Source: Nocardia sp. BMG111209
Lineage (GTDB): Bacteria; Actinomycetota; Actinomycetes; Mycobacteriales; Mycobacteriaceae
Assembly: GCF_000381925.1 (NCBI RefSeq)
Contig: NZ_KB907307.1
Span: 682,001-746,000 of the forward strand
Direction of reading: 5' to 3'
Length of the DNA: 64,000 bases
Under the pieces are notes generated by a model. That model worked only from the letters and a program-made list of their open reading frames with translations, was not told where the DNA came from and did no database searches. Every line of letters starts with the position of its first letter. Position 1 is the stretch's first letter. Both the position numbers and the translations under genes were made by a program. Shown here in pieces: positions 19,172-46,011 of the stretch.

Positions 19172-19173
19172 GC

Positions 19174-19213
19174 GTGTACGTCGGAAGCGGCAAAGCGTGT
19201 ACAACTCGTGTAC
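19174..19213. repeat. Three GTGTAC repeats between integrase and tRNA-Pro
   Basis: GTGTAC occurs at 19174-19179, 19197-19202 and 19208-19213, the first two within the longer repeat AAGCGTGTAC. Short repeats between an integrase gene and its tRNA target often serve as arm-type integrase or excisionase sites. That role is inferred from position only. Confidence 0.45.
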
Positions 19214-19226
19214 ACGGAGCAAGTCG

Positions 19227-19268
19227 AAGGCCCGGTCACGGCGATCGAAATCGCTGTGACCGGGCCTT
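19227..19268. terminator. Bidirectional terminator between integrase and tRNA-Pro
   Basis: An almost perfect 19-bp stem (arm AAGGCCCGGTCAC then GGCGAT) closes on a CGAA loop, with one unpaired position. It can end transcripts from both the integrase and the tRNA. Confidence 0.8.
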
Positions 19269-19273
19269 TCCGG

Positions 19274-19347
<74 letters not shown>

Positions 19348-23273: not shown

Positions 23274-24017
23274 TCAGTGTTCGCGGAGGAGGGTGCCCGC
23301 GTTGTCCACTCGGTCGTCGAATCCGTGGTCGCGCAACGCATACCAGAGGGTGGCGGCGTTGATCGCGATCACCGGTTTGCCGAGTTCGCGTTCCAGCTCG
23401 TCGGCCTGGGCCACGAAGGAGAGGTTGGTGCCGACCTGGACGATGGCCTCCACGTCGGGGGCGTCGATCTCGGCGATCATGGCGCGCAGGCGATCCGGGG
23501 CCACTCGGGCGATATCCATCGCGGTGGGGCAGCGTAGGCCGGTGATGGCGGCGACGTCGAAGCCGGCCTCGGTGAAGAAGCGGCCCACCTCCACGTCGGC
23601 GACCGGCTGATAGGGGGAGAAGACGGCGATGCGGTGGCAGCCGAGTTCGTGCAGGGCGGCTCGGCAGGAACTCGCGCCGGTGGTCACGGGGAGGCCGGTG
23701 CGGTCGCGCAGGCGTTGTTCGAAGGCGGCGTTGCCCTCGATGCCGCCCCAGAACGTCTCCGCCGACATGCCCATCACCATGCGGTCCGGTTCGGCGGTGA
23801 GGGCGTCGCGGACTGCGGTGTCTATCGAGGCGCGGATCTGGCCCAGCAGGGCGCGGAAATCGTCGTCGTTGCCCATCACCGGATCCGGGATGTACATGGA
23901 GCCGGCGCGGTAGGCGACGCCGGGGACTCCGGATCGCCAATAGTCGTGTTCGACAACGGTATTGGTACTCGGCACGATCACGCCGAAGACGGCTCTGGGG
24001 CCAACGGCATTGGTCAT
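23274..24017 (-). CDS. Maleate isomerase / Asp-Glu racemase superfamily protein 1
   Basis: This 247-aa full-length member has VPSTNTVVEHDYW at the N-terminus, FSPYQPVADVEVGRFF in the middle and GKPVIAINAATLWYALRDHG at the end, the landmarks of maleate cis-trans isomerases and arylmalonate decarboxylases. The family's two catalytic Cys are not where expected: the first region reads VMGMSAETFWGG and the second QVGTNLSF. The chemistry may therefore differ (isomerase, decarboxylase, or amide-ring hydrolysis). A paralogue with the same substitutions is at 25680-26423. The gene is downstream of, and probably co-transcribed with, the TetR gene (17-bp gap). Confidence 0.8.
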   Translation of the reverse strand: MTNAVGPRAVFGVIVPSTNTVVEHDYWRSGVPGVAYRAGSMYIPDPVMGNDDDFRALLGQIRASIDTAVRDALTAEPDRMVMGMSAETFWGGIEGNAAFEQRLRDRTGLPVTTGASSCRAALHELGCHRIAVFSPYQPVADVEVGRFFTEAGFDVAAITGLRCPTAMDIARVAPDRLRAMIAEIDAPDVEAIVQVGTNLSFVAQADELERELGKPVIAINAATLWYALRDHGFDDRVDNAGTLLREH

Positions 24018-25679: not shown

Positions 25680-26423
25680 TCAGTGGTCGCGCAACAGTCC
25701 ACCCGCGCCCTCGATCCGGTCGTCGAAACCGTTGTCGCGCAGCGCCATCCACCAGGTCGCGGCATTGATGGCGATCACCGGCTTGCCCAGCCAGCGTTCG
25801 GCCTCGTCGGCCAGCCGCAGCATCGACAGATTGGTGCCGCACTGGACGAGGGCGTCGATATCGTCGCCGTCGACCTCGCGCAGCGCCGCGCGCAGTTCGT
25901 CCTCGGTGACGTGTGCGATGGAAACCGCGGTGGGACAGCGCAATCCCTCGATAGCGCCGACCTTCACACCGAGTTCGCCGAAGAACCGGACGACGTTCTC
26001 GTCGCCCACCGGCTGATACGGGGTGACGACGCCGATCCTGGTGGCGCCGTACAACTCCAGGGCGCGCCGGCACGCCTCGGCGCCGGTGGCGACCTCGAGG
26101 CCGGTCACCTCGTGGATCTGCCGCACGAACGCGCGGTTGCCTTCCACACCGCCCCAGAAGGTTTCGGCGGACATACCCATGACCATGTAGTCCGGTTCGC
26201 AGGTCAGGACCCGCTCGCAGGCCGCGACGATCTCCGCGCGGATTTGATCGAGCAGCCGGCCCATCCCGGCGTCGTCGCTCATGTTCTGGTCTCGGATGTG
26301 GATGCGGCCGAAGTGGGTGGTGACGCCGGGCACGCCCAGGCGGGCGAAATCCGGCTCCACCACGGTATTGGTGGACGGTGCCAGCACGCCGAACTTGGCG
26401 CGCCAGCCGAGTACATCGGGCAT
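25680..26423 (-). CDS. Maleate isomerase / Asp-Glu racemase superfamily protein 2
   Basis: The 247-aa product has GAGGAA before the ATG. It is a close paralogue of the protein at 23274-24017 (shared VMGMSAETFWGG and GKPVIAINAATWW). The second active-site region reads VQCGTNLSM, with a Cys one position before the spot occupied by the catalytic Cys in Pseudomonas NicE by my by-eye alignment. It is the last gene of the eight-gene operon headed by the nitrilase, 15 bp after the NYC1/NOL-like SDR. In nicotinate catabolism maleate isomerase follows maleamate amidase. Here a maleamate-amidase-like gene is at 46012, consistent with a maleimide or methylmaleate route. Confidence 0.8.
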   Translation of the reverse strand: MPDVLGWRAKFGVLAPSTNTVVEPDFARLGVPGVTTHFGRIHIRDQNMSDDAGMGRLLDQIRAEIVAACERVLTCEPDYMVMGMSAETFWGGVEGNRAFVRQIHEVTGLEVATGAEACRRALELYGATRIGVVTPYQPVGDENVVRFFGELGVKVGAIEGLRCPTAVSIAHVTEDELRAALREVDGDDIDALVQCGTNLSMLRLADEAERWLGKPVIAINAATWWMALRDNGFDDRIEGAGGLLRDH

Positions 26424-26438
26424 GGCTGTTCCTCGGGA

Positions 26439-27227
26439 TCAGGATTCGGGTGTTTCGGCGAACAGATCGCGGCGGCGGAACGGGGCGGTGGCGAAGCGGC
26501 GCATCACCTTGCCGGTCGTCAGCCAGGCCACGTGCTCGCCGTTGCGGGTGCGGGTGACCGCGCGCTCGGCCAGCCACGGGGTGACCGTCTCCACGCGGTC
26601 GGCGAGGATGTTGAACACCTTGCGCGCCTTGGCCAGTTCGTCCGGATCGGCATAGCCGCCGGTGAGCAGATCGGTGACCACCATGCCGGGGCTGAGCAGG
26701 CCCACCGAGACACCGGCGGGGACCTCGCGGGTCAGGCCGCGGGTCAGGTAGGTGACCGCGCGTTTGGTGGCGCCGTAGACGGTCAGGCCGGGCACGGACC
26801 GGCCGTCGCTGCCGAGGCCCTCCATGTTCCAGACGTGGCCGCCGCCGGTCGCGGCCAGGGCCGGGATGGCCACCGCGCAGCCGTTGAGCACGCCGATCAG
26901 GTTGGTGGACACCACTTTCCGGGCCTCGGCCGCCGGTAGTTCCCAGATCGGGGCCCGGGGGTGCGCGACGCCGGCGTTGTTGATCCACACGTCGACGCCG
27001 CCGAACCGGTCCACGGCCGCGTCCCAGAGTTGTTGCAGGCTCGCCCGATCGGTGACATCGGCGGTGATCGCCAGGGCGGCAGGGAGTTCCGCGGCCACCT
27101 CGGCGACCCGCGCGGAGTCGGTGCCGCACACCGCGACCCGATGCCCGGCGGCGAGCAGGGCACGGGTCAGACCGAGGCCGATACCGCGGGTGCCGCCGGT
27201 CACGACCACCGTGCGGGGCGTCGTCAT
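26439..27227 (-). CDS. SDR resembling chlorophyll b reductase (NYC1/NOL type)
   Basis: The product is 262 aa. The nucleotide motif is TGGTRGIG (residues 10-17), NNAG is at 83-86 and YGATK at 151-155. The segment normally holding the catalytic Ser reads NMEGLGSDGR (134-143). This NMxGxGSDGR...YGATKR block, VDVWINNAG and LSPGMVVTDLLTGG with a following FNILAD closely match plant NYC1/NOL reductases, which reduce the 7-formyl group of chlorophyll b. Ordinary bacterial SDRs lack these strings. NYC1/NOL homologues outside phototrophs are little studied. The start overlaps the stop of the upstream gene (ATGA). A reductase of a formyl or keto group on a tetrapyrrole or similar ring is inferred. Confidence 0.8.
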   Translation of the reverse strand: MTTPRTVVVTGGTRGIGLGLTRALLAAGHRVAVCGTDSARVAEVAAELPAALAITADVTDRASLQQLWDAAVDRFGGVDVWINNAGVAHPRAPIWELPAAEARKVVSTNLIGVLNGCAVAIPALAATGGGHVWNMEGLGSDGRSVPGLTVYGATKRAVTYLTRGLTREVPAGVSVGLLSPGMVVTDLLTGGYADPDELAKARKVFNILADRVETVTPWLAERAVTRTRNGEHVAWLTTGKVMRRFATAPFRRRDLFAETPES

Positions 27228-28165
27228 TCGCGCTCCAGCACGCCGTGCACGATCGTCGCCAGGCGATTGTGCTCGAACAGTTGGTAGACCACCGCCAGCG
27301 TCGCACCGGCCCCCATACCCGGCTCGGCGTCGATCATGAATTCCCGGCCCACCAGCCGGACCCCGTCGGTGCGGTGCATCCGGACGAAATGCGCACGGCC
27401 GAAGGCGGTTCCGTTGCCCCAGACGTCGGGTCCCTCGTGGAACCAGCGGGTGCCGTCGCGGCGGACGACGGCGCGGGTCTCGGAATCCAGTGCGCCGGAG
27501 ACGGTCAGGTGATGTTCGGCGGTGAGCAGGCTGTGCGGTGTGACGTCCAGCGTCATCCGGGCCTTGCCCTGCGCGGTCTGGTCGGCGCTCCACACCTCGA
27601 GATCACCGGCGTAGCGCGACGGATCCTTACTGGGCAGCGTGAACGGCACCGCGCCACAGCGGGTTTCGGCGGCCAGGCGCTCGTCGACCAGCTCCGGATC
27701 GCGGGTGTAGACGCCGTCGAACACGCCGACCACCGCCGGGCCCTGCGACAGCACCGACGAATAGACCTGGGTGTCACCGACGGTCTGGTTCCAGGTGTTC
27801 AGCGACACCTGCCAGCCGGGCCCGTAGTAGTGCGCGTCCACGAAACCGCCGTAGGGCTGGCCGGAACCGTAGAAATCGGGACCGGTGTAGATGCGGTCAC
27901 CGTCGGAGTCGACGACGCCGAAGGCGAACGACGCCCCCAGAGCGTAGCGGCCGGCGAGTTTGCCGCCGCCGGTCAGTCCGCCGTCCATGTAGTAGACGGT
28001 CCGGCCGTCCTCGAAGACCGACGAACGGCGGATGTCCTCGAATCCGTGCCACACCCCCTCGGCGTCGAACAGCGAAGGGCGGCCCACCCATTCGCCGGCG
28101 ATCCGCTGCTGCCAGCGGCTCGGCTCGGCGCCGGTGGCCGGGCCCGGCTCCGTGTCGGGGCTCAC
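27224..28165 (-). CDS. Lipocalin-like beta-barrel protein, unknown function
   Basis: The 313-aa product starts at a GTG that overlaps the stop of RCCR-like gene 1 (GTGA). It has no signal peptide and no TM segment. The sequence alternates hydrophobic and polar residues in many short strands with frequent Gly and aromatic residues (WQQRIAGEWVGRPSLFD, then TVYYMDGGLTGGGKLAGRY, then HYYGPGWQVSLNTWNQ). The opening W-x-x-R-I-x-G-x-W-x-G is lipocalin-like, so two barrel halves are possible. Lipocalin-fold proteins such as CpcS-type lyases and DUF3598 proteins bind bilins. In an operon with RCCR-like genes, pigment binding or a ring-modifying activity is a fair hypothesis only. Confidence 0.6.
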   Translation of the reverse strand: MSPDTEPGPATGAEPSRWQQRIAGEWVGRPSLFDAEGVWHGFEDIRRSSVFEDGRTVYYMDGGLTGGGKLAGRYALGASFAFGVVDSDGDRIYTGPDFYGSGQPYGGFVDAHYYGPGWQVSLNTWNQTVGDTQVYSSVLSQGPAVVGVFDGVYTRDPELVDERLAAETRCGAVPFTLPSKDPSRYAGDLEVWSADQTAQGKARMTLDVTPHSLLTAEHHLTVSGALDSETRAVVRRDGTRWFHEGPDVWGNGTAFGRAHFVRMHRTDGVRLVGREFMIDAEPGMGAGATLAVVYQLFEHNRLATIVHGVLERE

Positions 28166-28851
28166 CGCGCCAGCTCCTGCCGCACCCGCTCGGCCTGTTC
28201 GGCCCCGAGCAGCCGGGTGACCTGTGCCCACACCGGATCCACCTGCGGACTGAACAGATTCGCGCGGTTGGCGTGGTCGCGCGCCGGCAGATCGGCGCGC
28301 ACGGCGGGAACGCCCTTGTCCACCAGCGTGAGCCAGTGCCGCAGATAGGTGTCCACGGTGGCGCTCAGGGCGCCGAACGCGGATTCGGTGGCGCGGCACA
28401 CCAGCATCCACGGCGACATCATCGCCCGCTGCCGGGGGCCGACGGCCGCGGCCGAGACACCCGCCACCTGCCACGCGGCATCCAGCAGCGGGGTCAGCGG
28501 GAGGAACGCGGCGTCCAGGTATTCCAGTTCGACGGCGAGATCGGCGCGCGGGATCAGATCCAGGTGCATCGCGTAGTACTCGCCGCCGTACACCGCGTCC
28601 AGCGTGAAATGCGGTACAGCCGAATCACTTCCGGTGAAGGCGAAGATCATGTGACTGTCCAGGCCGATCGGCGGGACGACCAGGTCGACGGTCACCAGCT
28701 TGTCGATCGGGCCGCCGCGCAGGACGCGCAGTCGCCCGACCGGATCCGGGGACATGGCGCTGGTCAGCGGTTCGTCGGTCGTGACCGCCAGACCCAGCGC
28801 GGCGGACAGTGTTTCGAGGGTGCGCTCACTGAGCGCGGTGGGCAGGCTCAT
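28162..28851 (-). CDS. RCCR-like (red chlorophyll catabolite reductase-like) protein 1
   Basis: The product is 229 aa. The central part reads LDSHMIFAFT, VPHFTLDAVYGGEYY, then LDLIPRADLAVELEYLDAAF. This parallels plant RCCR: the strand pair before an acidic active-site residue (plant Glu in FVVEL, here Asp85), and the LDLPxRKDL...DYL block. The end (PARDHANRANLFSP) parallels the RRD...R...FG region. RCCR belongs to the ferredoxin-dependent bilin reductase fold and reduces the linear tetrapyrrole left after pheophorbide ring opening. ATGA overlap with the Rieske gene shows tight coupling. Identification is by eye from motif order, so I give it as 'RCCR-like'. Confidence 0.72.
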   Translation of the reverse strand: MSLPTALSERTLETLSAALGLAVTTDEPLTSAMSPDPVGRLRVLRGGPIDKLVTVDLVVPPIGLDSHMIFAFTGSDSAVPHFTLDAVYGGEYYAMHLDLIPRADLAVELEYLDAAFLPLTPLLDAAWQVAGVSAAAVGPRQRAMMSPWMLVCRATESAFGALSATVDTYLRHWLTLVDKGVPAVRADLPARDHANRANLFSPQVDPVWAQVTRLLGAEQAERVRQELAR

Positions 28852-29969
28852 TTCGGGGCTCCTCCGTTGCGGGCCTTGTGTACCCAGGCGCTGGCCAGTT
28901 CCGGATTCTCGCGCCGCACCGGCGACGCGATGACCGTCGCGCTGCGGTGCGGGCCGTCGCCGGTGACGACGTCGGTGTCGCCGACCCACCAGCCGTCCTC
29001 GATCAGCTGGGCGCGCCGGCGGCGGTAGGCGATCTGCAGGGCATCGCTGCGGACGTGCAGTTCGTCGGCGAGATCGAACGGAAGCAGTTCCGGCCGTTGC
29101 GATTCCACCACCGGCCGATCCTGTAGCAGGATCTTCTCGATGCGCTTGCGGGTGTTCCCGTCGGCCCACGCCCCGGTGAAGAAGCTGCGGAAGCCGAGGA
29201 TCTTCACCAGGGTCCGATCCTGCGACAGCGGAATGTTGAAGTCGTAGAGGATCAGATCGCCGATCGGCAGCCGCACGTGCAACTTGACCACGTTCGGCAG
29301 ATACCAGCCGTTGGTCACCGTCACGTACTCGGGGCGTTCCTTGCGCCGGGCGAGCAGGCCCCACAGGCCCTTCGGCGGCGGCGGGCTCATCAGGATGTCC
29401 GCCTCGCCGGACCAGTCCGTCTGCCGCACTTCGTAATCCGGGATCTGCGGCCGGTCCGGATTGCCGAACGCGGTGCCGTGCACGAAGGGGGTGTGCGAGG
29501 CGTCCACGACGTTCTCGAAGGTGCGCTCGTAGTTCGCGTCCACCACCATCTCGTATTCGACGGCCTTGAACGCCGGATCGTCCCACTGCGGGATCTCCGG
29601 GATGGGCGGGCGCTGCTCCTCGGGCAGATCACCGAGGAAGGCCCAGATCATGCCGTACCGTTCCACGGTGGGATACGCGTCGACCCGCGCCTTGCGCGGG
29701 ATGTTGCGCTCCGGCGCGTTGGCGGGGATGCGGACGCACACGCCACCGCTGTCGTACTGCCAGCCGTGATACGGGCAGGTGATGATGTCGCCGGCGACCG
29801 TACCCATCGACAGCGCGCCGCCGCGATGGACGCACAGGTCCGAAAGACAGGTCACCGCACCGGATTCGGTGCGATACAGCACGAAATTCTGGCCGAGGCA
29901 GACGACCCGGCGCGGTTGCGCGCCGACCTTGGAGGCGAATTCGACGGCGTACCAGAAGTTCTTGAGCAC
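28848..29969 (-). CDS. Rieske non-heme iron oxygenase, pheophorbide a oxygenase/VanA-like
   Basis: The 373-aa product starts at GTG with GAGGAG upstream. Rieske ligands: Cys46-x-His48 (CVHRGG) and Cys65-x2-His68 (CPYHGW). Mononuclear iron site: ENVVDASHTPFVHG with His159 and His164 after Asp156. The C-terminal region VVESQRPELLPFDLADELHV is typical of the PaO/VanA/CMO branch. Plant PaO opens the chlorin ring of pheophorbide a, while VanA demethylates vanillate. Sequence alone does not decide, but the immediate neighbours (two RCCR-like proteins, a chlorophyllase-like hydrolase and an NYC1/NOL-like SDR) favour a tetrapyrrole-type substrate. No ferredoxin or reductase gene is in this operon, so a housekeeping electron donor is needed. 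Confidence 0.85.
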   Translation of the reverse strand: MLKNFWYAVEFASKVGAQPRRVVCLGQNFVLYRTESGAVTCLSDLCVHRGGALSMGTVAGDIITCPYHGWQYDSGGVCVRIPANAPERNIPRKARVDAYPTVERYGMIWAFLGDLPEEQRPPIPEIPQWDDPAFKAVEYEMVVDANYERTFENVVDASHTPFVHGTAFGNPDRPQIPDYEVRQTDWSGEADILMSPPPPKGLWGLLARRKERPEYVTVTNGWYLPNVVKLHVRLPIGDLILYDFNIPLSQDRTLVKILGFRSFFTGAWADGNTRKRIEKILLQDRPVVESQRPELLPFDLADELHVRSDALQIAYRRRRAQLIEDGWWVGDTDVVTGDGPHRSATVIASPVRRENPELASAWVHKARNGGAPK

Positions 29970-29979
29970 AACGATCTCC

Positions 29980-30927
29980 TCAGTGCCGTTTCAGCAGCAA
30001 TCCGTCGTCGAAAGCGGCCAGTTCGTCGCGCGCCGAGGCCGATTCCGACAGGTGGGTGCGCAGGAACAGCGTCGTCAGCCGCGCGAACGGGGGCAGGCCG
30101 TCGGCCTCCGCGGGTCCGTCCAGGAAGGCGCGGGCCGCGGTGGGATCGGCGTCGGCGATGCCGAAGTGGTTGGCGCCCGGCACGACCGCGAGCAGATGCT
30201 CGCCGTCGGGCAGCGCCTCGGTGAAGGTGCGTGCCACCGGATCCGGGCGGGCCGCGTCGTCGGATTCACCGTAGCGGTCGGCACTGCCCTGGATGACGCC
30301 GTCGTTGGTACCGACACCCAGCAGCACCGGGCATTCCACCTGGGCGGGGAGCACGGTGCCCGGATCCCAGCCGAGCATGGTCGCCACCATCGTGTGTGCG
30401 CCCCAGGCGAATACGGCGCGCACGCCGGGGAAGAACCGCGCCGATTGCAACACCACGGTGCCGCCGGCGGAATGGCCGCCGAGCGCGACCCGGTCGAGAT
30501 CCAGTGCGCCACGCAGTGGTTCGGTCTCGTTCAGTTCGGCGACGGCGGCCAGTACGGCCGTGATGGTGGGGCAGGTGGGCCGGGTGCCGTAGCTGTCGGG
30601 CCGGGCGGCGGCCAGATCGACGCCGGGGGTGATCCCGCGCTGGCCGCCGAACAGATCGGCGACCCGATCGAAGGTGACGACCACGAAACCGGCCTCGGCG
30701 ATGGCGGTCGCGTAGCGGCGGTAGGCGTCCTGGCCGACATTGACGCCGGACAGGAACAGCACCACCGGATACGGCGCGCGGGCCGGATCCGGCGCGAACA
30801 CGCCGGTGAGGCGTTCGGCGTCGTCACCGGAGGCGACGGCCGGGTAGTAGACCTTCAGATGTGCGGTGTCGAACGGGGCGTCGCCGTCGGTGCGCGCCGA
30901 CCACCACAGGGAGCGGACGAGTGTCAT
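29980..30927 (-). CDS. Chlorophyllase-like alpha/beta hydrolase
   Basis: The product is 315 aa, without a signal peptide. YPVVLFLSGVNVGQDAYRRYATAIAEAGFVVVTFD matches the start of the chlorophyllase/PAF-AH fold (plant: PVxxFxHGxxxxNxxYxxLLxHIAxxGFIVVAP). The nucleophile is Ser153 in GGHSAGG, the Asp is probably Asp209 in GTNDGV, and the His is His254 in GANHFG. Chlorophyllases remove phytol from chlorophyll or pheophytin. Bacterial relatives also include polyester and dienelactone hydrolases. It lies 2 bp after RCCR-like gene 2 and 10 bp before the Rieske gene, so it is co-expressed with them. Confidence 0.78.
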   Translation of the reverse strand: MTLVRSLWWSARTDGDAPFDTAHLKVYYPAVASGDDAERLTGVFAPDPARAPYPVVLFLSGVNVGQDAYRRYATAIAEAGFVVVTFDRVADLFGGQRGITPGVDLAAARPDSYGTRPTCPTITAVLAAVAELNETEPLRGALDLDRVALGGHSAGGTVVLQSARFFPGVRAVFAWGAHTMVATMLGWDPGTVLPAQVECPVLLGVGTNDGVIQGSADRYGESDDAARPDPVARTFTEALPDGEHLLAVVPGANHFGIADADPTAARAFLDGPAEADGLPPFARLTTLFLRTHLSESASARDELAAFDDGLLLKRH

Positions 30928-30929
30928 GA

Positions 30930-31739
30930 TCAGCCCACCGGCCTCGGGGAGACACGGTCGCCGCCCCACAGCGCGCGCACCAGGCGCGCGGTGAGTTCGG
31001 CCCCGAACATGCGCTCGCCCATCACATTCGCCGGATCGCGTTCGGCGATGTTGCGGCGCACGCGCAGATCCCGCTCCGCCAGCGCGGCCTGTTCCTCGGC
31101 GGGAACGGGTTCGGCGGCGTCGACCCAGCCGAGCCAGCGGTCCACCGTCGTCGTGAGCACCTCGCGCACGGTGTCCAGATTGGGGCGGGTGGTGGGGAAG
31201 GAGTAGCAGTACGCGGTCGGCGACAGGCTGGCCCGGATGAATCCGGTCCGGCTGGTGAACCAGGTGAAATCCGGATGGGCCTGCTTGAAGGTCAGCCAGG
31301 GCTCGTCGGTGCCGGCGTAGTAGCGGTCGAAGTAGTCGCCGTCGCCGACGAGATCGCCGCGCGGTACGCCGTCGACGTAGAACCAGCCCTGCGGCCACAG
31401 CAGCAGCGCCGACGCCAGATGCGGCACCCGCACCTGCGGGCCCAGCCACGCGGTGAGGTGCAGGTTCACGAAACCCGTTCGGGGATCACCGATCCAGGAG
31501 TGGACCAGCCAGTCGATCTCGGGCCCGCTGTAGGCGGCCAGGCTGCCGGAGGGACCGTTGTCGGGATCACCGTAGGAGTCCAGATCGGTGGTGGAGCCGT
31601 CGCGGGTCAGCTCGAAGCGGTCGTCGAGGCGGCCCTTCAGGCCCGCCAGCATCTCCTGCCACTCCCGGAAGATCTCGCTCACATCGGTTCTGGGGTTCTC
31701 GTCGACCATCTGCTCGACGTGTTGCAGGGTTTCGCTCAT
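30930..31739 (-). CDS. RCCR-like protein 2
   Basis: The product is 269 aa and is the clearer RCCR relative. By eye against Arabidopsis ACD2 (from memory) these blocks match in order: IDWLVHSWIG (75-84) with plant IDFVIGSWIH; VPHLASALLLW with APNFVVELIQ; VPRGDLVGDGDYFDRYY (125-141) with PHRKDLVLNPDYLKEYY; FIRASLSPTA (167-176) with FVRSAFSPTA; and ERDLRVRRNIAERD then RMFGAELTARLV (222-254) with ERRDKSFRRKSIEDD then RMFGEEVSSRVV. The plant active-site Glu is replaced (Ala/Leu), while the C-terminal Asp is present (Asp235). The ATGA overlap with the nitrilase gene shows coupling. Two RCCR-like paralogues in one operon suggest successive reductions or a heteromer. Confidence 0.8.
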   Translation of the reverse strand: MSETLQHVEQMVDENPRTDVSEIFREWQEMLAGLKGRLDDRFELTRDGSTTDLDSYGDPDNGPSGSLAAYSGPEIDWLVHSWIGDPRTGFVNLHLTAWLGPQVRVPHLASALLLWPQGWFYVDGVPRGDLVGDGDYFDRYYAGTDEPWLTFKQAHPDFTWFTSRTGFIRASLSPTAYCYSFPTTRPNLDTVREVLTTTVDRWLGWVDAAEPVPAEEQAALAERDLRVRRNIAERDPANVMGERMFGAELTARLVRALWGGDRVSPRPVG

Positions 31740-33358
31740 GGCAGCTCCGGTTCGATGGTGGCGGTGGCGGGTTCGCGCGTGAGGGCGGTGAGTGCGGCGA
31801 GCGGGATCCCGGCCACCAGATCGGTGCCCCGGGAGACCGCGCGATTGACCGCCTGGGCGGGCCGGACCGTGGTGACGAGCCGCGGCGCGCCCGGCGGCGC
31901 GGTGACGAGGTCGGGATGGCTGATACGACCGGTGAACGGTCCCTGCCAGGCGGTCCAGAGGGTGAAATCAGGGCTGAGGGCGCACACCGTGGCGGTGAGG
32001 CCGCCGGTCGCGTCGATTCCGGCGGCGACGATGTTGAGCCGGTTCTCCGCGGACCGCTCGGGCAGGCCGAGCCGGACCTCCCACGGCTCGGCCGGGGTGT
32101 GCGGTACGGCCACCACATCGGCGTCGCGAATCACGGCCAGCCGGAAGGTCTCCGGGAACAGCGCATCGTCGCCGACCACCAGTGCCAGCCTGCCCCACGG
32201 CAATTCGAAGATCTCGATCCCGGCGCCGGCCGCCTCGTGCCCGGCGGTCCGGTGCAGCCGGGGCTGGCGGCCCGCGATACCGTCGGCGTTCACCAGCAGG
32301 CCGGCGCCGCCGGCCTCGGTGAGCACCACGTGTGCGGTCGAATCACTTAGTGCGGCAATGACTTTCGGGATCTCCAGGGTGGCCGATTCCGGCAGCACGA
32401 TCAGCTGTGCGCCGTCGGCGACCGCGGCGGCGATCTGCGCGGGATCGGGAAGTGCCGCCGCGACCGTGAGCGTCTCCGCGCCGGCCGGGGCCCGGCGGAC
32501 CCCGGAGCCGGTGAGCAGCGGGGTGTACAGCCGCGGGCGGCGGGCGGCCAGGATGTCGGTGCCGTCGGGGCGGCGCTTGTCGTCGGCCCGCGCGACGTCG
32601 ATATCGGCGACCACCAGCGACTCGCCGGTCGCGGGGGCGCGGGCCACCGTGATGCCGTCCGGGGCGACGATCTGGCTCTCGCCGGCGCCGTGCAGTTTGT
32701 CGGCCGGAACACCGAGCCGGGTCGCGATGTCGGGCAACAGGTCCGCCGGGAGCAGCGGGCCGACCTTGTTGGCCGCCACCACCCAGACCTTGTTCTCCGC
32801 GGCGCGGACCGGGATGTGCAGGCCCGCCTCGTCGGAGGCGAAGGAGTTGAGGCTGTTCAGCAGGATCTGCGCGCCGCGCACCGCCAGGGAGCGGGCGACC
32901 TCACAGATGACCCCCTCCATACAGGCGTACAGGCCGAGGCGGCCCAGCGGTGTGTCGATGATCTCCGAATCGGACTCCCCGCGGACGAGATGATCGTTCT
33001 CCGCACCCATCAGGATCTGCTTGTGCGACTGTCCGATCAGCTCGCCGTCCGGTCCGAACAGCAGGCTCGCGCCGGTCGTGCCGCCGTCGTCGTGGGCGAG
33101 GGTGACGCCGATCTTCACGTACATCCGGTGCCGGGTGGCCCGTTCGGCCACCGGGCCGAGGAAATGATCTCCGATCCGGCACGCCATTCGGTGCGCGTGG
33201 GACCGGTCCGTGTACCACGATAGGTGGTTACAGAACTCGGGTAGCACCACCAACTCGGCTTCGGCGGTCGCCGCGTCGTCGATCAGGCGCAGGCAGGCGT
33301 CGAGGTTGGCCGCGACGTCGGTGCCTGCGGCGAGTTGGGCGGCGGCGACTCGCGTCAT
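31736..33358 (-). CDS. Tandem nitrilase-superfamily protein, second domain degenerate
   Basis: ATG 33358 (540 aa) has AGGAGGTG upstream. Domain 1 (residues 1-260) has the full Glu-Lys-Cys triad: Glu41 in VVLPEFCNH, Lys113 in SHKQILMGAENDH and Cys146 in YACMEGV. Domain 2 (about 300-520) keeps the fold (LIVLPESATLEIP, then WGRLALVVGDDALFPE) but has Gly/Asp where the Cys should be, so it is probably structural. Nitrilase-superfamily enzymes cleave nitriles or amide C-N bonds, and an amidase acting on ring-opened amides or imides would fit this pathway. It is the first gene of the eight-gene operon, directly behind composite operator copy 2. Confidence 0.85.
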   Translation of the reverse strand: MTRVAAAQLAAGTDVAANLDACLRLIDDAATAEAELVVLPEFCNHLSWYTDRSHAHRMACRIGDHFLGPVAERATRHRMYVKIGVTLAHDDGGTTGASLLFGPDGELIGQSHKQILMGAENDHLVRGESDSEIIDTPLGRLGLYACMEGVICEVARSLAVRGAQILLNSLNSFASDEAGLHIPVRAAENKVWVVAANKVGPLLPADLLPDIATRLGVPADKLHGAGESQIVAPDGITVARAPATGESLVVADIDVARADDKRRPDGTDILAARRPRLYTPLLTGSGVRRAPAGAETLTVAAALPDPAQIAAAVADGAQLIVLPESATLEIPKVIAALSDSTAHVVLTEAGGAGLLVNADGIAGRQPRLHRTAGHEAAGAGIEIFELPWGRLALVVGDDALFPETFRLAVIRDADVVAVPHTPAEPWEVRLGLPERSAENRLNIVAAGIDATGGLTATVCALSPDFTLWTAWQGPFTGRISHPDLVTAPPGAPRLVTTVRPAQAVNRAVSRGTDLVAGIPLAALTALTREPATATIEPELP

Positions 33359-33612: not shown

Positions 33613-34950
33613 ATGACGACACCGAGCGCATCCACCGGAACAGGAACCACCCCGTCCACCCGGCCGCCGTTCATCGCCGAATCCGCCGCCCACCGCGCCG
33701 CCTCGTGGCTGCCGCTGCTCGCCGCCGCGGCGGCCGGACCCGCGGCGGGCGTCGAGATCGTGCTGCTGGGCAAGGCGCTCGGCGGCCGCGCCGGACTGCC
33801 CGGCGCGGTGGTGGGATATATCGCCGCGACCGCGGCGGTGCTCGCGGCCGTCGCGATCGTGCTCGGCCGTCGCCGGTTGCCGCCGCGCACCGGCCGCGGC
33901 GGCGGGCTGCTCGCGCTGCTCGCGGGGCTGGGACTGATCGTCGCCGGGGCGATTCCGGCTGTACCGGCGCTGACGATCGGCCTGTTGCTGACCGGTGTGG
34001 TGGGCGGGCCGCTGCTGCTCACGGCCCGAATCGTGAACGAGCCGAAAGCGTTTCGGGCCGCGATGACCGTCGGGGCACTGGCGGGGGCCGGGGTCGCCGC
34101 CGTCACCACCGAGTACCCGGGAGTGGCCGTCGCCGTCGCGGGCGTGGTGGCGGGGCTCGCCGGATTGCTCTCGGTGGCAGGGAATCCGGTGCCGCCCAGG
34201 GCTGTCGGCCTCGGTGCCCCGGATGCCGCCGTGCCGGGCGAGCCGGAGTCGTTCGTCCTCGGTGGCACCGAGGCGGAGTCGTTCGTCCTCGGTGGCACCG
34301 CGCCGGAGTCGTTCGTCCCCGGCCGCGCCGCGCCGGAGTCGTTCGTCCCCGACCGCGCCGCGCCGGAATCGTCGATTCTTGGCGGCGCCGAGACGGGTGC
34401 CGAGCCAGATACGGTCACCGGCTCGGGGCCGGGGGAGTGGATCGTCCGGGCCGCAGCCGGATTCGCGGTCGGTGCGACCGTCCTGCCGGCCCTGCATCTG
34501 CTGCTGTTCCGCTGGACCGTACTCGACGCCGATCAGCCGCCGTACCTGGCCGTCGCCCTGATCCCCGCGGCGCTGGTCGCCTTCCTCGCCGGCGCTCGCC
34601 GCGCGGCCGCGGCGCCGCTGCTCGTCCTCGCCGCGGGCGGACCGGTTCTCGTCGCGACCGCACCCGGCCCCTGGCAGGCGACCCTCGGGATCGCCGTGAC
34701 CGTGACAGCCGCGGTCCGCGCCCTCACCCTCCGCGGCCCAGATTCCACGAAACCGATTCTCGCGCTGCTGATTCCACCCCTCGCCGCAGCCGTGGCCCTC
34801 GCCCTCGCGCTCGGCCTGCGGCACCTGTGGGGTGACGGCGCGGCCCTGACCCTGCTCGCGCTGCCGGTGCTCGCCGCCGCCCTGTCCGTCACCCGGCCGG
34901 GGGCGATCACCCGGCCGGACCCCGAACCCACCTCCGAAGGAGGCGCGTGA
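33613..34950 (+). CDS. Polytopic membrane protein with internal repeat, possible transporter
   Basis: The 445-aa product has GGAGGTGAG before the ATG. About ten to twelve hydrophobic segments are arranged in two halves (residues 35-200 and 275-430), an MFS-like layout but with no recognised family motif. A loop between the halves carries five 10-residue repeats of the type PESFVLGGTA. The 3' end overlaps the neocarzinostatin-fold gene start. Because operator copy 3 controls it, this protein probably moves a substrate or product of the RCCR/Rieske pathway, or assists the two secreted proteins downstream. Both are inferences. Confidence 0.72.
   Translation: MTTPSASTGTGTTPSTRPPFIAESAAHRAASWLPLLAAAAAGPAAGVEIVLLGKALGGRAGLPGAVVGYIAATAAVLAAVAIVLGRRRLPPRTGRGGGLLALLAGLGLIVAGAIPAVPALTIGLLLTGVVGGPLLLTARIVNEPKAFRAAMTVGALAGAGVAAVTTEYPGVAVAVAGVVAGLAGLLSVAGNPVPPRAVGLGAPDAAVPGEPESFVLGGTEAESFVLGGTAPESFVPGRAAPESFVPDRAAPESSILGGAETGAEPDTVTGSGPGEWIVRAAAGFAVGATVLPALHLLLFRWTVLDADQPPYLAVALIPAALVAFLAGARRAAAAPLLVLAAGGPVLVATAPGPWQATLGIAVTVTAAVRALTLRGPDSTKPILALLIPPLAAAVALALALGLRHLWGDGAALTLLALPVLAAALSVTRPGAITRPDPEPTSEGGA
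34243..34392 (+). repeat. Five 30-bp tandem repeats inside the membrane-protein gene
   Basis: Five units beginning CCGGAGTCGTTCGTC (with variants) encode PESFVLGGTE, AESFVLGGTA, PESFVPGRAA, PESFVPDRAA and PESSILGGAE. Later units drift, so the array is not newly expanded. It forms the central loop of the protein. Confidence 0.9.
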
Positions 34951-35555
34951 TGATTCGCGTAAACCGCCGTGGCGCTGTGGCGTTCGCCGCCGCCGTACTG
35001 GCCGCCGGACCGATCGCCGCCGCGCCCGCGTCGGCGGATCCGGCCGCACCGGCGGTCCTGCACGTCAGCGCCACCACCGATCTGGCGGACGGGCAGCGGG
35101 TCACCGTGAGCGGCAGCGGTTTCCAGCCCGGACTGCCGGCCGTCGCGGTCGGGCTGTGCCGGCAGGGATACACCAACGGGCTCAACGACTGTGATCTCGG
35201 CGGCGGTGCGGGTTTCGTGAACATCGCACCGGACGGGACCTTCAAAACCCTGACGCTGACGCTGCATCCGCGGTTCAAGGAGATCGACTGCCTGAAGCAG
35301 CAGTGCGAGGTGGCCGCCGCCCCGCTGCCGGGCACCCAGCCGGTCCCGGTGATCACCGCCAACACGGCCGTCACGCCGATGGCCTTCGCCGGTGCGACCT
35401 TTGCGCCGCCCACCACTTCGGCCGCCACCGCCGCCGGAACCGCCGCGTCCGCCGCCCCCGAGACCCGGGGGCCGTCGGTGGCGCTGTGGTCGGTGACGGC
35501 GGGCCTGCTCGCCGTCGTCGCCGGAGCCGCCTTCGCCGATCGGCGTCGGCTGTAG
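34950..35555 (+). CDS. Secreted neocarzinostatin-family protein with C-terminal membrane anchor
   Basis: ATG 34950 has AGGAGG 6 nt upstream; GTG 34947 is an alternative. Product 201 aa: signal peptide 1-30 (ending ASA), then a neocarzinostatin-type domain (HVSATTDLADGQRVTVSGSGF, then AVAVGLCRQGYTNGLNDCDLGGG, with paired Cys as in the family), a Thr/Ala-rich stalk and a final TM helix plus RRRL, so it should be tethered to the outer face of the membrane. Neocarzinostatin-fold apoproteins bind large aromatic chromophores. In this operon, binding of a pigment outside the cell is a testable idea. The gene is coupled to the membrane-protein gene. Confidence 0.82.
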   Translation: MIRVNRRGAVAFAAAVLAAGPIAAAPASADPAAPAVLHVSATTDLADGQRVTVSGSGFQPGLPAVAVGLCRQGYTNGLNDCDLGGGAGFVNIAPDGTFKTLTLTLHPRFKEIDCLKQQCEVAAAPLPGTQPVPVITANTAVTPMAFAGATFAPPTTSAATAAGTAASAAPETRGPSVALWSVTAGLLAVVAGAAFADRRRL

Positions 35556-36721: not shown

Positions 36722-37262
36722 GCTCTCCTCCTGTTTCCGAATTACTACTTCCACCAAGGTGACACGGCAACACTTGTGACGACCACCAGGACACGGTTCG
36801 CGACGCATCCGCTCCGTTCACCGGGCGGCCCGTTTGCCCGCCGGCCGGAACCCGGTGCGCCGCGGGATATCCGCGGCCGGTGCGTTCGTGATCGGGCACC
36901 GGCCGCCGGATCCCGGCCCGCCGAATCTATTCGACTGCGGCAACCGCGGGCCAGATCGGTGTCCCGGTCGCGGCGGACCCCAGATCCAGCTGGTTGAGAA
37001 GATTCTGGACGAGAATCCACAGGTTCATCGGTTACTCCTCGGTCGTTCGTTTCATCCTCGATGCCGTGCGTTCGCGCGGTCCCGTGCCGCCGGTGTTTGC
37101 CCGAAAGACGCTGGTATCAACGCCGTTCCGGGGCGCCGGGTGGTCCGGTTCCGCGAATCCCGCCGACATCTTGTGACGGCACCCACAGTGTGGTGTCATC
37201 ATGATACTCAGATGCAGGAAATGTATCTCTGTATCTGTGACTCGACGAAGAGGAACAGTGGC
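36722..37262. other. Divergent control region between TetR and Lcp-like genes
   Basis: 541 bp without a convincing ORF. It should contain both promoters. Near the Lcp-like gene there are short related elements (GATACTCAGATGC, AAATGTATCTC, TGTATCTG around 37202-37238) that could be regulator sites, but no clean palindrome was found. Confidence 0.4.
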
Positions 37263-38486
37263 ATGGACGCAACCCGACTCAGCAGACGTAACGCGTTCCG
37301 GGCAGGCGGCGGCCTCCTGGGGGCCGTCGGCGCCCTCACATTCATGGCGCAGACCGTCCGGGCCGAGCCCTGGACATGGGCGCCGGAGGGCTCGGTGGTG
37401 GGCAGCGGCAACGGGGCCGATCCGCTGACCATGTGGGATCCCGAGGCGGATCCCGTGGTCGCCGATGTGATGGACAACGCCGATGTACCCGCGGTCAACC
37501 GACTGCTGGCGACGTGGACGAACAACGGTCAGCCCATTCCGGCCGGGCTGCCCCAGAATCTGCGCGATTTCATGGAATACGCGCGGCAGCTGCCGTCGTG
37601 GGCGGATCCGGGCCGGCTGGGGCAGTCGTTCCAGTTCACCCAGAAGCGCGGCACCTATCTCGGCGTGCTGTACGCGTTCGCCAGCGGGATGATGTCCACG
37701 GTCATTCCGCACGAGGCGCTCGCGGTGTACTACTCGCGCGGTGGTTCACACCTGAAGGACCGCATCGCCAAGACCGCGAAATTCGGTTACGACATCGGCA
37801 CCGTCAACGCGTACGCACCCGACGGCGAGATGATCGTGACCTGTGTCAAGACGCGGATCATCCACGCGGCGGTGCGGCATCTGCTGCCGACCTCGCCGCA
37901 TTGGCCGGCCGACGTCAAACCGATCAGCCAGAACGACGTCATGGTGACGTGGCACAGCCTGGCCACGACCATCATGCGGGTGTTCAAGCAGTGGAATCTG
38001 AACATCCCGCCCGCCGAATCCGACGGATATCTGCACAGCTGGCAGCTGGCCGGTCATTTCCTCGGCGTCCGGGACGAATACATTCCGGCGTCCTGGGATC
38101 AGGCCGACGACCAGGCCAAGCAGGTCCTCGATCCGATCATCGCCCCGACCGCGGAGGGCGTGTCCCTCGCGCACGGACTGCTGGATCTGGGTTTCGACCT
38201 CGATCTGACGCTGCTCAGCAAACCCATTCTGGGCGCGTTCACCCGGTTCATTCTCGGTGATCAGGTGGCGGATTGGCTGCAGATTCCGCGGGAGCCGGTC
38301 TGGAGCCCGTTGCTGCAATTCGCCTGGGGCCCGTTCGTCGCGGTCAAAGAGGGTGTGCAGGGCGTCGTTCCGCCGACGAAGGATGTCGCGTACCTGTTCG
38401 ACGAATTCCTGCGGCAATTCGTGTTGTGGTACGTGTCCGAACTGCACATGCCGCTGAGCATCGAGATTCCGCAGACCAACCGGTAG
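37263..38486 (+). CDS. Latex clearing protein-like (Lcp) oxygenase, Tat-exported
   Basis: The 407-aa product has GAGGAAC upstream. The N-terminus has a twin-arginine signal (RLSRRNAFRAGGGLLGAVGAL, then AQTVRA). The body matches the Lcp/DUF2236 oxygenase family: KRGTYLGVLYAFASGMMSTVIP, the VKTRIIHAAVRHLLP block with the Lys-Thr pair, and NDVMVTWHSLATTIMR, whose His matches the proximal heme ligand region. Lcp cleaves cis-1,4-polyisoprene to oligo-isoprenoids with keto and aldehyde ends. The Arg described three residues before the Lys in Streptomyces Lcp is not obvious here (Thr instead), so substrate range may differ. The gene is monocistronic, with a terminator downstream, and no OxiAB-like partner is adjacent. 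Confidence 0.82.
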   Translation: MDATRLSRRNAFRAGGGLLGAVGALTFMAQTVRAEPWTWAPEGSVVGSGNGADPLTMWDPEADPVVADVMDNADVPAVNRLLATWTNNGQPIPAGLPQNLRDFMEYARQLPSWADPGRLGQSFQFTQKRGTYLGVLYAFASGMMSTVIPHEALAVYYSRGGSHLKDRIAKTAKFGYDIGTVNAYAPDGEMIVTCVKTRIIHAAVRHLLPTSPHWPADVKPISQNDVMVTWHSLATTIMRVFKQWNLNIPPAESDGYLHSWQLAGHFLGVRDEYIPASWDQADDQAKQVLDPIIAPTAEGVSLAHGLLDLGFDLDLTLLSKPILGAFTRFILGDQVADWLQIPREPVWSPLLQFAWGPFVAVKEGVQGVVPPTKDVAYLFDEFLRQFVLWYVSELHMPLSIEIPQTNR

Positions 38487-38635: not shown

Positions 38636-40051
38636 CTACTGCCCCGGCGGATAGGCCCGGGCCGGCAGGCCGGCGCCACCGGGCCGGAACACGCCCGGCG
38701 CATGGGTGACCGTGGTCTGCACGTATTCGCGCAGCCCCTCCTCGGCGTATTCCCGGCCGAAACCGCTGCGCTTGATGCCGCCGAACGGGGCCCGCAGCGA
38801 CATCCCGGTGCGATTGTGGGTGTTCACGAAGGTGAATCCGGCCTCCAGCCGCGCGGCGACCCGGAAGGCCCGGTCCTCGTCCGCCGACCACACCGAGGCG
38901 CCGAGCCCGAGCTCGGAATCGTTGGCGCGCGCGATCATCTCGTCCTCGTCGCGGTAGGTCAGAAGCGGTACGGCGGGCCCGAACTGCTCGGTACACACCA
39001 GCGGCGCATCGTCCGGCGGTGTGCGGGCCAGGACCGCATCCGCGAAATAGCCGTCCCCGCGGGGGGCCCGCGCCAGCGTGATCAGTTCGGCGCCGCGGTC
39101 CGCGGCATCGCGCACCAGGCCCGAAATGCGTTCCACCGCGGCCCGGTTCACCACCGGGCCCATCGTGGTGTCCTCGTCGGCCGGATCGCCGATACGCAGG
39201 ATCCGTTGCGCGGCGGCCACATACGCGTCGAGGAACTCCGCGGCGCGGCGCTGCGGGACGTAGAGCCGCTTGGCGGCCATGCAGACCTGGCCCGAGGTGG
39301 CGAACGAGGCCAGCACCAACCGCTCGTAGTCGTCTCCGGTGAGCGCGAAGTCGTCGAGGAATACGGCGGGATCGTTGCCGCCGAGTTCGAGCACCACCGG
39401 CGTCAGGGCCCGCCCGGCCGCGGCGGCGATACTGCGTCCGGCCACCTCGCCGCCGGTGAACGCGACCTTGCCGACCAGCGGATGCGCGACCAGCGCCTGC
39501 ACCAGTTCGGGGCCGCCGTGCACGACCGTGGTCTCCGGCAGTAGTTCCGCGACCGCGGTCACGGTCAGCGGCGCCAGCGGGGAAGGCTTGAGCAGCACCG
39601 TATTTCCCGCCGCCAGCGCCGGGCCGAGCTTCAGCACGGCGAGGATGATCGGCGCGTTCCAGGGTGTGACGGCCGCGATCACCCCGTACGGGCGCGGGGT
39701 GGTGGTGAGCCGGCCCGCGGCGTCGTCGAGTTCGGTCGCGCCGTACACCGCCGGGGCGTGCGCGCACACCCACTCCAGATAGCGTGCGGCGAAACCGATC
39801 TCGCCGCGGCAGTCGGCGACCGGTTTACCGCTCTCCCGGGCCAGCAGCGCCGCCAGTTCCGCGGTGCGGGCATCCAGTGCCGCGGCGGCGGTGCGCAGCG
39901 GGTCCAGCCGCCGCGGCAACGGCAGCGCCGACCACGCCCGGAAGCGGTGATCGGCGGCCCGGACCAGTTCGTCCACGGCGGTGACCGGGGTGACCGGGAC
40001 CGATCCGACCATCTCGGCCGGGCGCGCCGGATTCTCCCGCTCGATCCTCAT
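38636..40051 (-). CDS. Aldehyde dehydrogenase family protein
   Basis: ATG 40051 (471 aa), overlapping the FAD-monooxygenase stop (ATGA). Motifs: VTPWNAPI and KPSPLAP (cofactor site), VAFTGGEVAGRSI, the general-base Glu in VLELGGNDP, the nucleophile Cys in SGQVCMAAKRLYV, and EQFGPAVPLLTY. It is an NAD(P)-dependent semialdehyde-type dehydrogenase, complete for the family (about 470-490 residues). It is last in the five-gene operon that starts at 44322. Substrate unknown; oxidation of an aldehyde released by the two monooxygenases upstream is likely. Confidence 0.88.
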   Translation of the reverse strand: MRIERENPARPAEMVGSVPVTPVTAVDELVRAADHRFRAWSALPLPRRLDPLRTAAAALDARTAELAALLARESGKPVADCRGEIGFAARYLEWVCAHAPAVYGATELDDAAGRLTTTPRPYGVIAAVTPWNAPIILAVLKLGPALAAGNTVLLKPSPLAPLTVTAVAELLPETTVVHGGPELVQALVAHPLVGKVAFTGGEVAGRSIAAAAGRALTPVVLELGGNDPAVFLDDFALTGDDYERLVLASFATSGQVCMAAKRLYVPQRRAAEFLDAYVAAAQRILRIGDPADEDTTMGPVVNRAAVERISGLVRDAADRGAELITLARAPRGDGYFADAVLARTPPDDAPLVCTEQFGPAVPLLTYRDEDEMIARANDSELGLGASVWSADEDRAFRVAARLEAGFTFVNTHNRTGMSLRAPFGGIKRSGFGREYAEEGLREYVQTTVTHAPGVFRPGGAGLPARAYPPGQ

Positions 40052-43846: not shown

Positions 43847-44322
43847 CGGGCAATCCCCTCGTGATAGGTGCGGTCGTGATAGATGAGCGGGGCGGTCGGC
43901 CGCGGTGTGGCCGCGTCCTGCACCAGCCCGAGCACGATGGTGTGATCGCCGGCCGGATAACAGGCGGCCACCACGCAGTCGATCCAGGCGACGGCGTCGG
44001 TGAGCACGGCGGTGCCGGTGGTCGCGACGTCCCAGTCGCCCAGGGCGAACCGGTCGGTGGCCGTGGTGGTGGCGAAACGGCGGCCGATCTCCTCGTGATC
44101 GCAGCCGAGCACGTTCACCGCGAACACGCCGCTGCTGCGGATCGCGCGGCAGGTCGTGCTGTCGGAGGCCACACATACCGAGACGAGCGGCGGATCGAGC
44201 GCCACACTGGTGAACGAACTGGCGGTCATACCGTGGTGGCCGCCCTCCTCGGTGCGCGTGGTGAGCACGACGACACCGGTGGCCCATTGCGCCAGCACCG
44301 TACGGAGATACCGGGAATCCAT
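43843..44322 (-). CDS. Flavin reductase (HpaC-like), partner of the monooxygenase
   Basis: The 159-aa full-length member of the flavin-reductase-like domain family has LAQWATGVVVLTTRTEEGGHHGMTASSFTSVALDPPLVSVCV at the start, then FAVNVLGCDHEEIGRRFA and DHTIVLGLVQDA at the end. It supplies reduced FMN/FAD to the monooxygenase encoded next (4-nt overlap). It is the first gene of the five-gene operon. Operator copy 4 ends only 10 bp before the ATG, and the ribosome site is weak. Confidence 0.9.
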   Translation of the reverse strand: MDSRYLRTVLAQWATGVVVLTTRTEEGGHHGMTASSFTSVALDPPLVSVCVASDSTTCRAIRSSGVFAVNVLGCDHEEIGRRFATTTATDRFALGDWDVATTGTAVLTDAVAWIDCVVAACYPAGDHTIVLGLVQDAATPRPTAPLIYHDRTYHEGIAR

Positions 44323-45935: not shown

Positions 45936-46011
45936 GATTGTCCTAACGGGGAGCGGCGGAAAGTGCTGCGGCACATCGTTGTTCGCAGTCCGTCCGGATT
46001 CGAGCGGGAGG

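Follow-up and report, generated by a model that had tools for sequence, protein, structure and literature searches.

Two RCCR-family proteins in a conserved Nocardia operon that may degrade chlorophyll-derived tetrapyrroles

Two proteins of the red chlorophyll catabolite reductase (RCCR) family are encoded beside a Rieske oxygenase in Nocardia sp. BMG111209, within a 64,000-nucleotide stretch of contig NZ_KB907307.1 (GCF_000381925.1, positions 682,001 to 746,000 of the forward strand; hereafter the window). The genes lie in a block of eight on the minus strand, ordered nit, rccA, hyd, rie, rccB, lip, sdr and mai from window position 33358 down to 25680. A preliminary description of this DNA had likened the block to the plant pathway of chlorophyll breakdown; its key claim, that two RCCR-family proteins share a conserved operon with an oxygenase, is borne out by sequence, by a structural model and by a survey of 80 loci. 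The operon probably processes tetrapyrroles of some kind. Whether the block and the flavin-enzyme and dehydrogenase genes upstream of it form a catabolic operon for chlorophyll-derived tetrapyrroles, analogous and not orthologous to the plant pathway, is finely balanced.

Two RCCR relatives, RccA and the divergent RccB

RccA (30930–31739) passes the Pfam RCC_reductase model PF06405 with 52.9 bits against a cut-off of 24.9, and its family profile matches Arabidopsis RCCR (AtRCCR, chain 3agb) over almost the full length (E 1.7e-21). Identity to four aligned cyanobacterial RCCR homologues is 42–49%. On these sequence matches, RccA is an RCCR-family protein, as had been proposed.

RccB (28162–28851) is a second, divergent member. 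Alone it scores 16.0 bits on PF06405, under the cut-off; among 27 members of its family, 13 match that model at E ≤ 0.1 (best 3.3e-5) and two match Fe_bilin_red. Searched against the PDB, the RccB family profile finds RCCR chains and no others up to E = 1 (best 0.0041). The AlphaFold model (predicted local distance difference test score 95.6) adopts the RCCR/bilin-reductase fold, with 2zxk as the best Foldseek match (E 1e-11), and fold comparison does not separate RCCR from PebA/PebB as the better match. The modelled fold and the family-level matches uphold the earlier RCCR-like label, which the protein's own score falls short of; judged by its model, RccB is an RCCR/bilin-reductase-fold relative. 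A check on whether the two proteins belong to unrelated families found kinship to RCCR in both, by sequence for RccA and by fold for RccB.

The paralogues differ at the active site. The acidic position of RCCR, which we take to be Glu154 (the active-site numbering of AtRCCR, PcyA and PebS being likewise our assumption), is occupied by Ala in RccA, which thus has no acidic residue there, and by Asp85 in RccB. Asp85 and Asp205 are invariant in the RccB alignment, Asp85 in all 27 family members, and RccB carries both acidic positions of bilin reductases. An unrooted tree of RCCR and bilin reductases places six cyanobacterial bilin reductases in a separate group (support 100/100) and RccB in one group (99/98); RccA joins the plant and cyanobacterial RCCR proteins at 86/45 only, with a long plant branch, and a long-branch warning attaches to the join of RccB with the bilin reductases.

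The block is conserved in order across bacterial families

Open reading frames (ORFs) with the same ends as the eight tightly coupled genes of the preliminary description were recovered, with likely starts at 33358, 31739, 30927, 29969, 28851, 28165, 27227 and 26423. Junctions range from −4 to +15 bp, with a 4-bp overlap at four and gaps of 2, 10 and 15 bp at the other three; co-transcription of the block is therefore likely on this spacing. Upstream of nit, a scan found one promoter-like and one terminator-like site. The ORF survey covered frames of at least 70 residues, a limit that a small ferredoxin could escape. The nearest relative genome is that of Nocardia aurantia, where the eight proteins are 92–99% identical over a single locus (95% for RccA).

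We surveyed 80 loci kept from 121 relatives found by RccA similarity (28 of the 80 are Nocardiaceae), scoring gene presence at bit-score thresholds of our own setting. In 48 of the 80 loci the full set of eight lies in this order with all genes on a single strand, and in 61 loci rccA, rie, rccB and lip are found together. Since RccA similarity selected the loci and Nocardiaceae abound among them, 48 of 80 is not a species frequency. The ordered recurrence is more than chance, and the block is kept together across several bacterial families. Records that hold RCCR-family genes in conserved context outside cyanobacteria are labelled Actinomycetota, Pseudomonadota and Chloroflexota. One of the surveyed loci, L051, is labelled Rhodospirillaceae yet groups with Acidimicrobiia in two trees and may be misbinned.

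Genome searches scored part of the candidates in each genome. Among 296 genomes drawn from across the phylum, three carry rccB, and these three are also the ones with rccA and lip, the genes lying no more than about 5 kb apart. In 148 Nocardia genomes we found rccB in 37, rccA in 35 and lip in 36, with all three in the same 35; about a quarter of the drawn Nocardia genomes therefore carry the module, whole or not at all, with two exceptions. One (G344) holds an RccB fragment only (profile positions 113–229), and the other (G366, an assembly of 1340 contigs) has rccB and lip, with rccA not found. Locus order and genome co-occurrence together lead us to reject chance adjacency of the block genes. 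A plasmid search with RccA gave no match.

Two side observations concern copies and borders of the module. In Actinoplanes couchii (L044:9600-11000), rccA stands with mere fragments of nit and rie and looks like a decayed copy. In the window, within 17933–19347, a phage-integrase-family gene on the plus strand ends adjoining a tRNA-Pro gene on the minus strand (19272–19347), a few kb from the cluster end, and this site is possibly a genomic island boundary.

Rie is a Rieske oxygenase without the PaO domain

Rie (28848–29969) is a Rieske non-heme iron oxygenase with a VanA_C-type C-terminal domain (PF00355, 73.8 bits; PF19112, 84.6 bits). Both the Rieske motif (CxH..CxxH) and the mononuclear iron motif (N-x2-D-x2-H-x4-H) are intact, and VanA_C is present in 27 of 27 family members scanned. 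The PaO domain PF08417 was found in none of the 27 at E ≤ 1; the same model matches in six of six cyanobacterial genomes. A C-terminal CxxC is a feature of the PAO/TIC55 group, and none of the 27 has one in its last 120 residues. The protein had been described as resembling both pheophorbide oxygenase (PAO) and VanA; the Rieske and VanA_C parts of that description stand, and by family membership, as read from domains, Rie is not a plant-type PAO.

The solved structures closest to Rie are SxtDIOX/SxtT, NdmA/NdmB and DdmC. A tree with 12 cyanobacterial PaO proteins and 10 VanA_C proteins from Nocardia genomes recovers Rie as one clade (90/85), rising to 97/99 after three long-branch rows (two VanA_C, one PaO) are dropped. 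Thirteen cyanobacterial PaO matches were obtained; L084, a 268-residue open frame, is in neither Rie tree. Topology tests reject neither a grouping of Rie with PaO (p-AU 0.27) nor one with the VanA-like protein of L095 (p-AU 0.35). On clustering with demethylases of simple aromatics, which would have undercut the plant parallel, the trees speak neither for nor against: Rie forms its own clade, with both groupings left standing. Because it accompanies RCCR-family proteins, Rie plausibly acts as a functional analogue of PAO. According to a 2009 study (PMC2716323), the PaO motif is generally missing from PaO-like sequences of bacteria.

Lip and the other enzymes of the block

Lip (27224–28165) is a double-barrel, calycin-like protein of the DUF3598/BFA1 fold. 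Its model matches the DUF3598 protein Npun_R4044 (2o62) and BFA1 (5yvf) over both barrels, at identities of 9% and 6%; the Pfam DUF3598_N model detects one of 27 family members (E 0.019). The lipocalin-like barrel foreseen earlier thus proves to be a double one. Heme- and bilin-binding proteins are among its fold neighbours, which strengthens the suggested role in bilin binding, a prediction from the model.

The hydrolase Hyd (29980–30927) has an invariant Ser153, Asp209 and His254 and sits in the DLH/PETase/chlorophyllase neighbourhood of alpha/beta hydrolases. On the chlorophyllase model PF07224 it scores 22.6 bits, against a cut-off of 26. Among 20 relatives, 10 match PF07224 (E ≤ 0.01), 15 PETase and 13 DLH; the chlorophyllase likeness first drawn therefore holds at the level of the superfamily, since the other models match as many relatives or more. 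Much the same applies to Sdr (26439–27227), taken at first for an NYC1/NOL-like reductase. It is a short-chain dehydrogenase/reductase (SDR; PF00106, 138.6 bits), and of its 235 NCBIfam matches the best 25 are to general SDR models and stay under cut-off, so that no specific kinship to NYC1/NOL is supported.

Nit (31736–33358) is a tandem CN-hydrolase of the nitrilase/amidase type (PF00795, 138.9 bits), as described. The first domain holds the Glu-Lys-Cys triad, intact in 13 of 14 aligned sequences, and the second is degenerate. Mai (25680–26423) belongs to the arylmalonate decarboxylase (AMDase)/maleate isomerase superfamily: it scores 69.6 bits on PF17645 (cut-off 25.9) and 57.9 on the NCBIfam arylmalonate decarboxylase model (cut-off 225), with structural matches to 2xed (E 3e-12) and AMDase (E about 1e-8). 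Cys195 is invariant in 15 of 15 sequences and aligns one position ahead of the altered site of 2xed; residues 75–90, around the first site, hold no invariant Cys. If the catalytic positions of AMDase and maleate isomerase are as we presume, the protein lacks the cysteine pair of a maleate isomerase; its likeness to that enzyme stands for the Amdase/EutA/maleate isomerase group, and a one-Cys Amdase type is favoured. A paralogue, mai2 (23274–24017, minus strand; PF17645, 81.1 bits), was recognised by translation and tblastn. It has Val at the Cys195 position and is 59% identical to the mai gene of the nearest locus; its membership of the cluster is uncertain. Matches to mai2 of at least 80% come from Nocardia loci only, often beside a TetR gene and a DUF4437/cupin gene.

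Conserved genes upstream extend the cluster

Five further minus-strand genes upstream, whose starts are inferred, give a 4-bp overlap at every junction: flr, a flavin reductase of HsaB/HpaC type (43843–44322; PF01613, 138.9 bits; 126 bits on NCBIfam HsaB, under the cut-off of 230); acd, a flavin enzyme of acyl-CoA (coenzyme A)-dehydrogenase fold (42572–43846; PF08028 and related models); ald2, an aldehyde dehydrogenase (41187–42575; PF00171, 308 bits); fad3, an FAD_binding_3 monooxygenase (40048–41190; PF01494, 190.5 bits); and ald1, a second aldehyde dehydrogenase (38636–40051; PF00171, 411 bits). DszC- and HsaA-type models are among the weaker matches of Acd, which is likely the oxygenase component of a two-component monooxygenase. 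Synteny supports ald1, fad3 and ald2. Trimmed versions of the upstream proteins (75 bits) were matched in the 80 loci as follows: flr in 19, acd in 38, fad3 in 44, ald2 in 55 and ald1 in 56, where the ald2 and ald1 counts include unrelated paralogues and 10-kb flanks end many loci early. In an Actinomadura locus (L028), ald1 ends about 0.2 kb before nit.

An IclR-family regulator on the plus strand (44446–45231; 1mkm, E 2.1e-34) diverges from flr. It has relatives in 24 of the 80 loci; in L028, L033 and L024, too, the regulator gene points away from flr, and in two Acidimicrobiia-type loci, L051 and L062, a relative at 50–51% identity stands directly before nit. As gene order indicates, the upstream flavin-oxygenase, dehydrogenase and IclR genes belong to the same cluster as the eight-gene block. 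The preliminary description had thus covered part of the cluster and overlooked these conserved upstream genes, the regulator and mai2.

Beyond the regulator lie two minus-strand genes of uncertain membership: iso, encoding an isochorismatase-type amidohydrolase (46012–46737, start inferred; PF00857, 126 bits), which is matched in two of the 80 loci, and a gene for a family III (CaiB-type) CoA-transferase (46749–47963). The NCBIfam models for succinate-glutarate and succinyl-CoA:mesaconate CoA-transferase match the latter under cut-off, and its relatives stand upstream of nit in L051–L055, L062 and L063. Some relatives of the cluster carry extra genes, for PrpB-like and RipC-like lyases, a PrpD-like protein, a CoA-transferase, an allantoinase/hydantoinase-like protein and further barrel-like proteins, all under curated NCBIfam cut-offs where such models match. 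The PrpB-like lyase of L051 reaches 262 bits on the PrpB model (cut-off 354), and its PDB matches include 2,3-dimethylmalate lyase.

Other genes accompany the cluster locally. Between ald1 and nit, this genome has a neocarzinostatin-family small protein (34947–35555) kept beside the operon in many Nocardia loci, an MPAB/Lcp-type (latex-clearing-like) oxygenase (36834–38486) found in only two of the 80 loci (L001 and L002), and a TetR gene. A membrane-type protein (45228–45974) has no Pfam match at E 0.001; its counterparts lie in the Pseudohalioglobus locus (L075:5888-6550) and in a small number of Nocardia loci. An open frame for what looks like a small membrane protein with several spans sits between sdr and mai in several actinobacterial loci, L031:15391-16050 among them, and is not in this window. 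A methyltransferase is named at 47947, beside the cluster.

Discussion

The plant PAO/phyllobilin pathway (NYC1/HCAR, SGR, PPH, PAO, RCCR) shares with the Nocardia genes a Rieske oxygenase, RCCR-family reductases, an esterase-type hydrolase and an SDR. In contrast to the plant pathway, the Nocardia genes form a single operon with two RCCR paralogues and extra catabolic enzymes; Rie lacks the PaO domain and the C-terminal CxxC, and Hyd and Sdr fall under the curated cut-offs tested. We therefore reject an orthologous copy of the plant pathway. The parallel drawn at the outset survives for the RCCR family, the most diagnostic of the pathway and here present twice, and plausibly for the oxygenase as an analogue; it does not extend specifically to NYC1/NOL or chlorophyllase. 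The Mg-dechelatase Staygreen (PF12638) was found in none of 12 genomes holding rccA, a weakly informative result since control genomes were equally silent; a bacterial Mg-dechelatase homologue has been reported (PMC8531759).

PMC8219035 describes the plant order as oxygenase, then RCCR, which suggests macrocycle opening by Rie, reduction by RccB and RccA, and a barrel holding the pigment. On such a route, Hyd would remove a phytyl or methyl ester from a pheophytin- or pheophorbide-type substrate, and Rie would open or oxidise the macrocycle in the manner of plant PAO. RccB, with both acidic positions kept, could reduce the open-chain product using electrons from a ferredoxin encoded elsewhere; RccA, with Ala at the first of these positions, may target another bond or an intermediate further along the route. 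Lip would carry the photoreactive pigment. The two-component flavin enzyme, the flavin adenine dinucleotide (FAD) monooxygenase and the aldehyde dehydrogenases would break the chain into pyrrole-derived imides and acids, from which the nitrilase and the Amdase-type enzyme could hydrolyse amides and decarboxylate or isomerise dicarboxylates, with the IclR protein switching the cluster. Every pyrrole ring of chlorophyll a has a methyl group, and the PrpB/dimethylmalate-lyase-like lyase, RipC-like lyase and PrpD-like enzyme of the relatives would feed methylated dicarboxylates into central metabolism.

Maleimides and hematinic acid are cited in PMC7318184 as oxidative products in senescent leaves and sediments; that study's own analysis found hematinic acid, with maleimides not detectable. 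The amidase, the Amdase-type enzyme and the relatives' lyase- and dehydratase-like proteins, as assigned from sequence, would fit the processing of maleimide- or hematinic-type fragments. A chlorophyll-derived pigment may well be the substrate, given the gene content, and the activity is a predicted one. More doubtful, if conceivable, is a bolder version: a self-contained route of chlorophyll mineralisation, with a convergent non-PAO Rieske oxygenase, an RCCR-family pair, a calycin barrel and fragment-processing enzymes, in which plant and Nostoc RCCR would descend from this bacterial family.

Heme-derived or phycobilin-type bilins (biliverdin, bilirubin, phycobilins) would be the substrate if the RCCR-fold proteins were ferredoxin-dependent bilin reductases and the oxygenase cleaved a bilin. 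The fold is shared with that family, including the pre-PcyA proteins of heterotrophic bacteria (PMC10151467), and RccB has its two acidic positions. The unrooted tree does not set RccB nearer to RCCR than to bilin reductases, a point that weighs against a chlorophyll substrate: we hold that reading with slightly less confidence for it, and the bilin alternative with slightly more. Even so, the RccA and RccB profiles find RCCR first, or instead of bilin reductases, and RccA falls with plant and cyanobacterial RCCR, at the modest support given above. We rejected heme oxygenase as a member of the operon: the genome's sole match lies about 135 kb away, and there is none among the scanned genes of the conserved block. 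An esterase-type hydrolase would have no obvious role on free-acid heme bilins. According to PMC10151467, pre-PcyA genes adjoin genes for globin, V4R and Fe-S proteins or for a B12-binding protein, none of which is named among the scanned genes of the Nocardia block; the same source treats RCCR as the outgroup of bilin reductases. Breakdown of such bilins is on balance unlikely.

The RCCR fold might instead have been recruited to a non-tetrapyrrole, the cluster degrading some other aromatic, N-heterocyclic or terpenoid compound. Oxygenase, dehydrogenase, CoA-transferase and IclR sets like this one (Rieske VanA_C, flavin two-component, FAD_binding_3, aldehyde dehydrogenases, CoA-transferase, IclR) are typical of aromatic catabolism, RccA has no acidic residue at the RCCR Glu position, and the nearest solved structures to Rie are those listed above. 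Two RCCR-fold genes and a barrel with heme- and bilin-binding fold neighbours nevertheless accompany the oxygenase in 61 of the 80 loci, and the characterised members of the RCCR/bilin-reductase group, those in PMC10151467 among them, act on linear tetrapyrroles, which makes recruitment to another substrate a rather unlikely explanation. The Nocardioides lumichrome (riboflavin) operon (PMC12746152) is likewise actinobacterial and catabolic, and pairs a Rieske oxygenase with amidases, its substrate being a natural heterocycle that resembles a pigment; what that source describes as its own are a P450, thiamin-dependent decarboxylation, xanthine oxidase and a multi-subunit Rieske dioxygenase, and its account of the operon names no RCCR protein. 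Very unlikely, in our estimate, is a role in producing or modifying a secreted specialised metabolite derived from a tetrapyrrole or pyrrole, with no pigment broken down. The patchy distribution across the 148 Nocardia genomes would suit it, as would the neocarzinostatin-like protein inserted in the Nocardia version and the weak matches of Acd to two models of pyrrole-forming enzymes, PigA (76 bits) and RedW (86 bits), both far under cut-off. Against this, none of the genes scanned within the block or next to it was assigned to an assembly-line, glycosyltransferase or prenyltransferase family, several ORFs being without a family; a hydrolase, an amidase, a pair of aldehyde dehydrogenases and a CoA-transferase suit degradation, and in some relatives there are also lyases resembling central-metabolic enzymes.

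Cyanobacterial RCCR homologues (Nostoc/Anabaena, PMC2716323) offer a further comparison. Several Nostoc loci place them ahead of a nitrilase-fold and an aldehyde dehydrogenase gene, the three standing in a row in L064, L066 and L076; the one Nostoc nitrilase-fold protein that was aligned, from L064, misses the Lys and Cys of the triad. At our thresholds, rie, rccB and lip are unmatched in all 16 cyanobacterial RCCR loci, and hyd is matched in one; in L066 a Rieske match lies about 5 kb off, and it is a weak one (30%, 83 bits). Among the matches listed from the full-text literature, whose scope leaves aside subscription journals and preprints, no paper describes an RCCR operon outside cyanobacteria.

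The source of RCCR genes was called problematical when only cyanobacterial homologues were known (PMC2716323), and RCCR-family genes in conserved context outside cyanobacteria are relevant to where plant RCCR came from. Synthesis and degradation of chlorophyll run on a scale of 10^12 kg a year, and PMC7318184 describes as largely open what next becomes of the breakdown products when decay is abiotic or plants are eaten by herbivores. If the Nocardia operon degrades chlorophyll-derived pigments, it would help to explain their microbial recycling, and the conserved cluster makes the fate of chlorophyll breakdown products directly testable by genetics.

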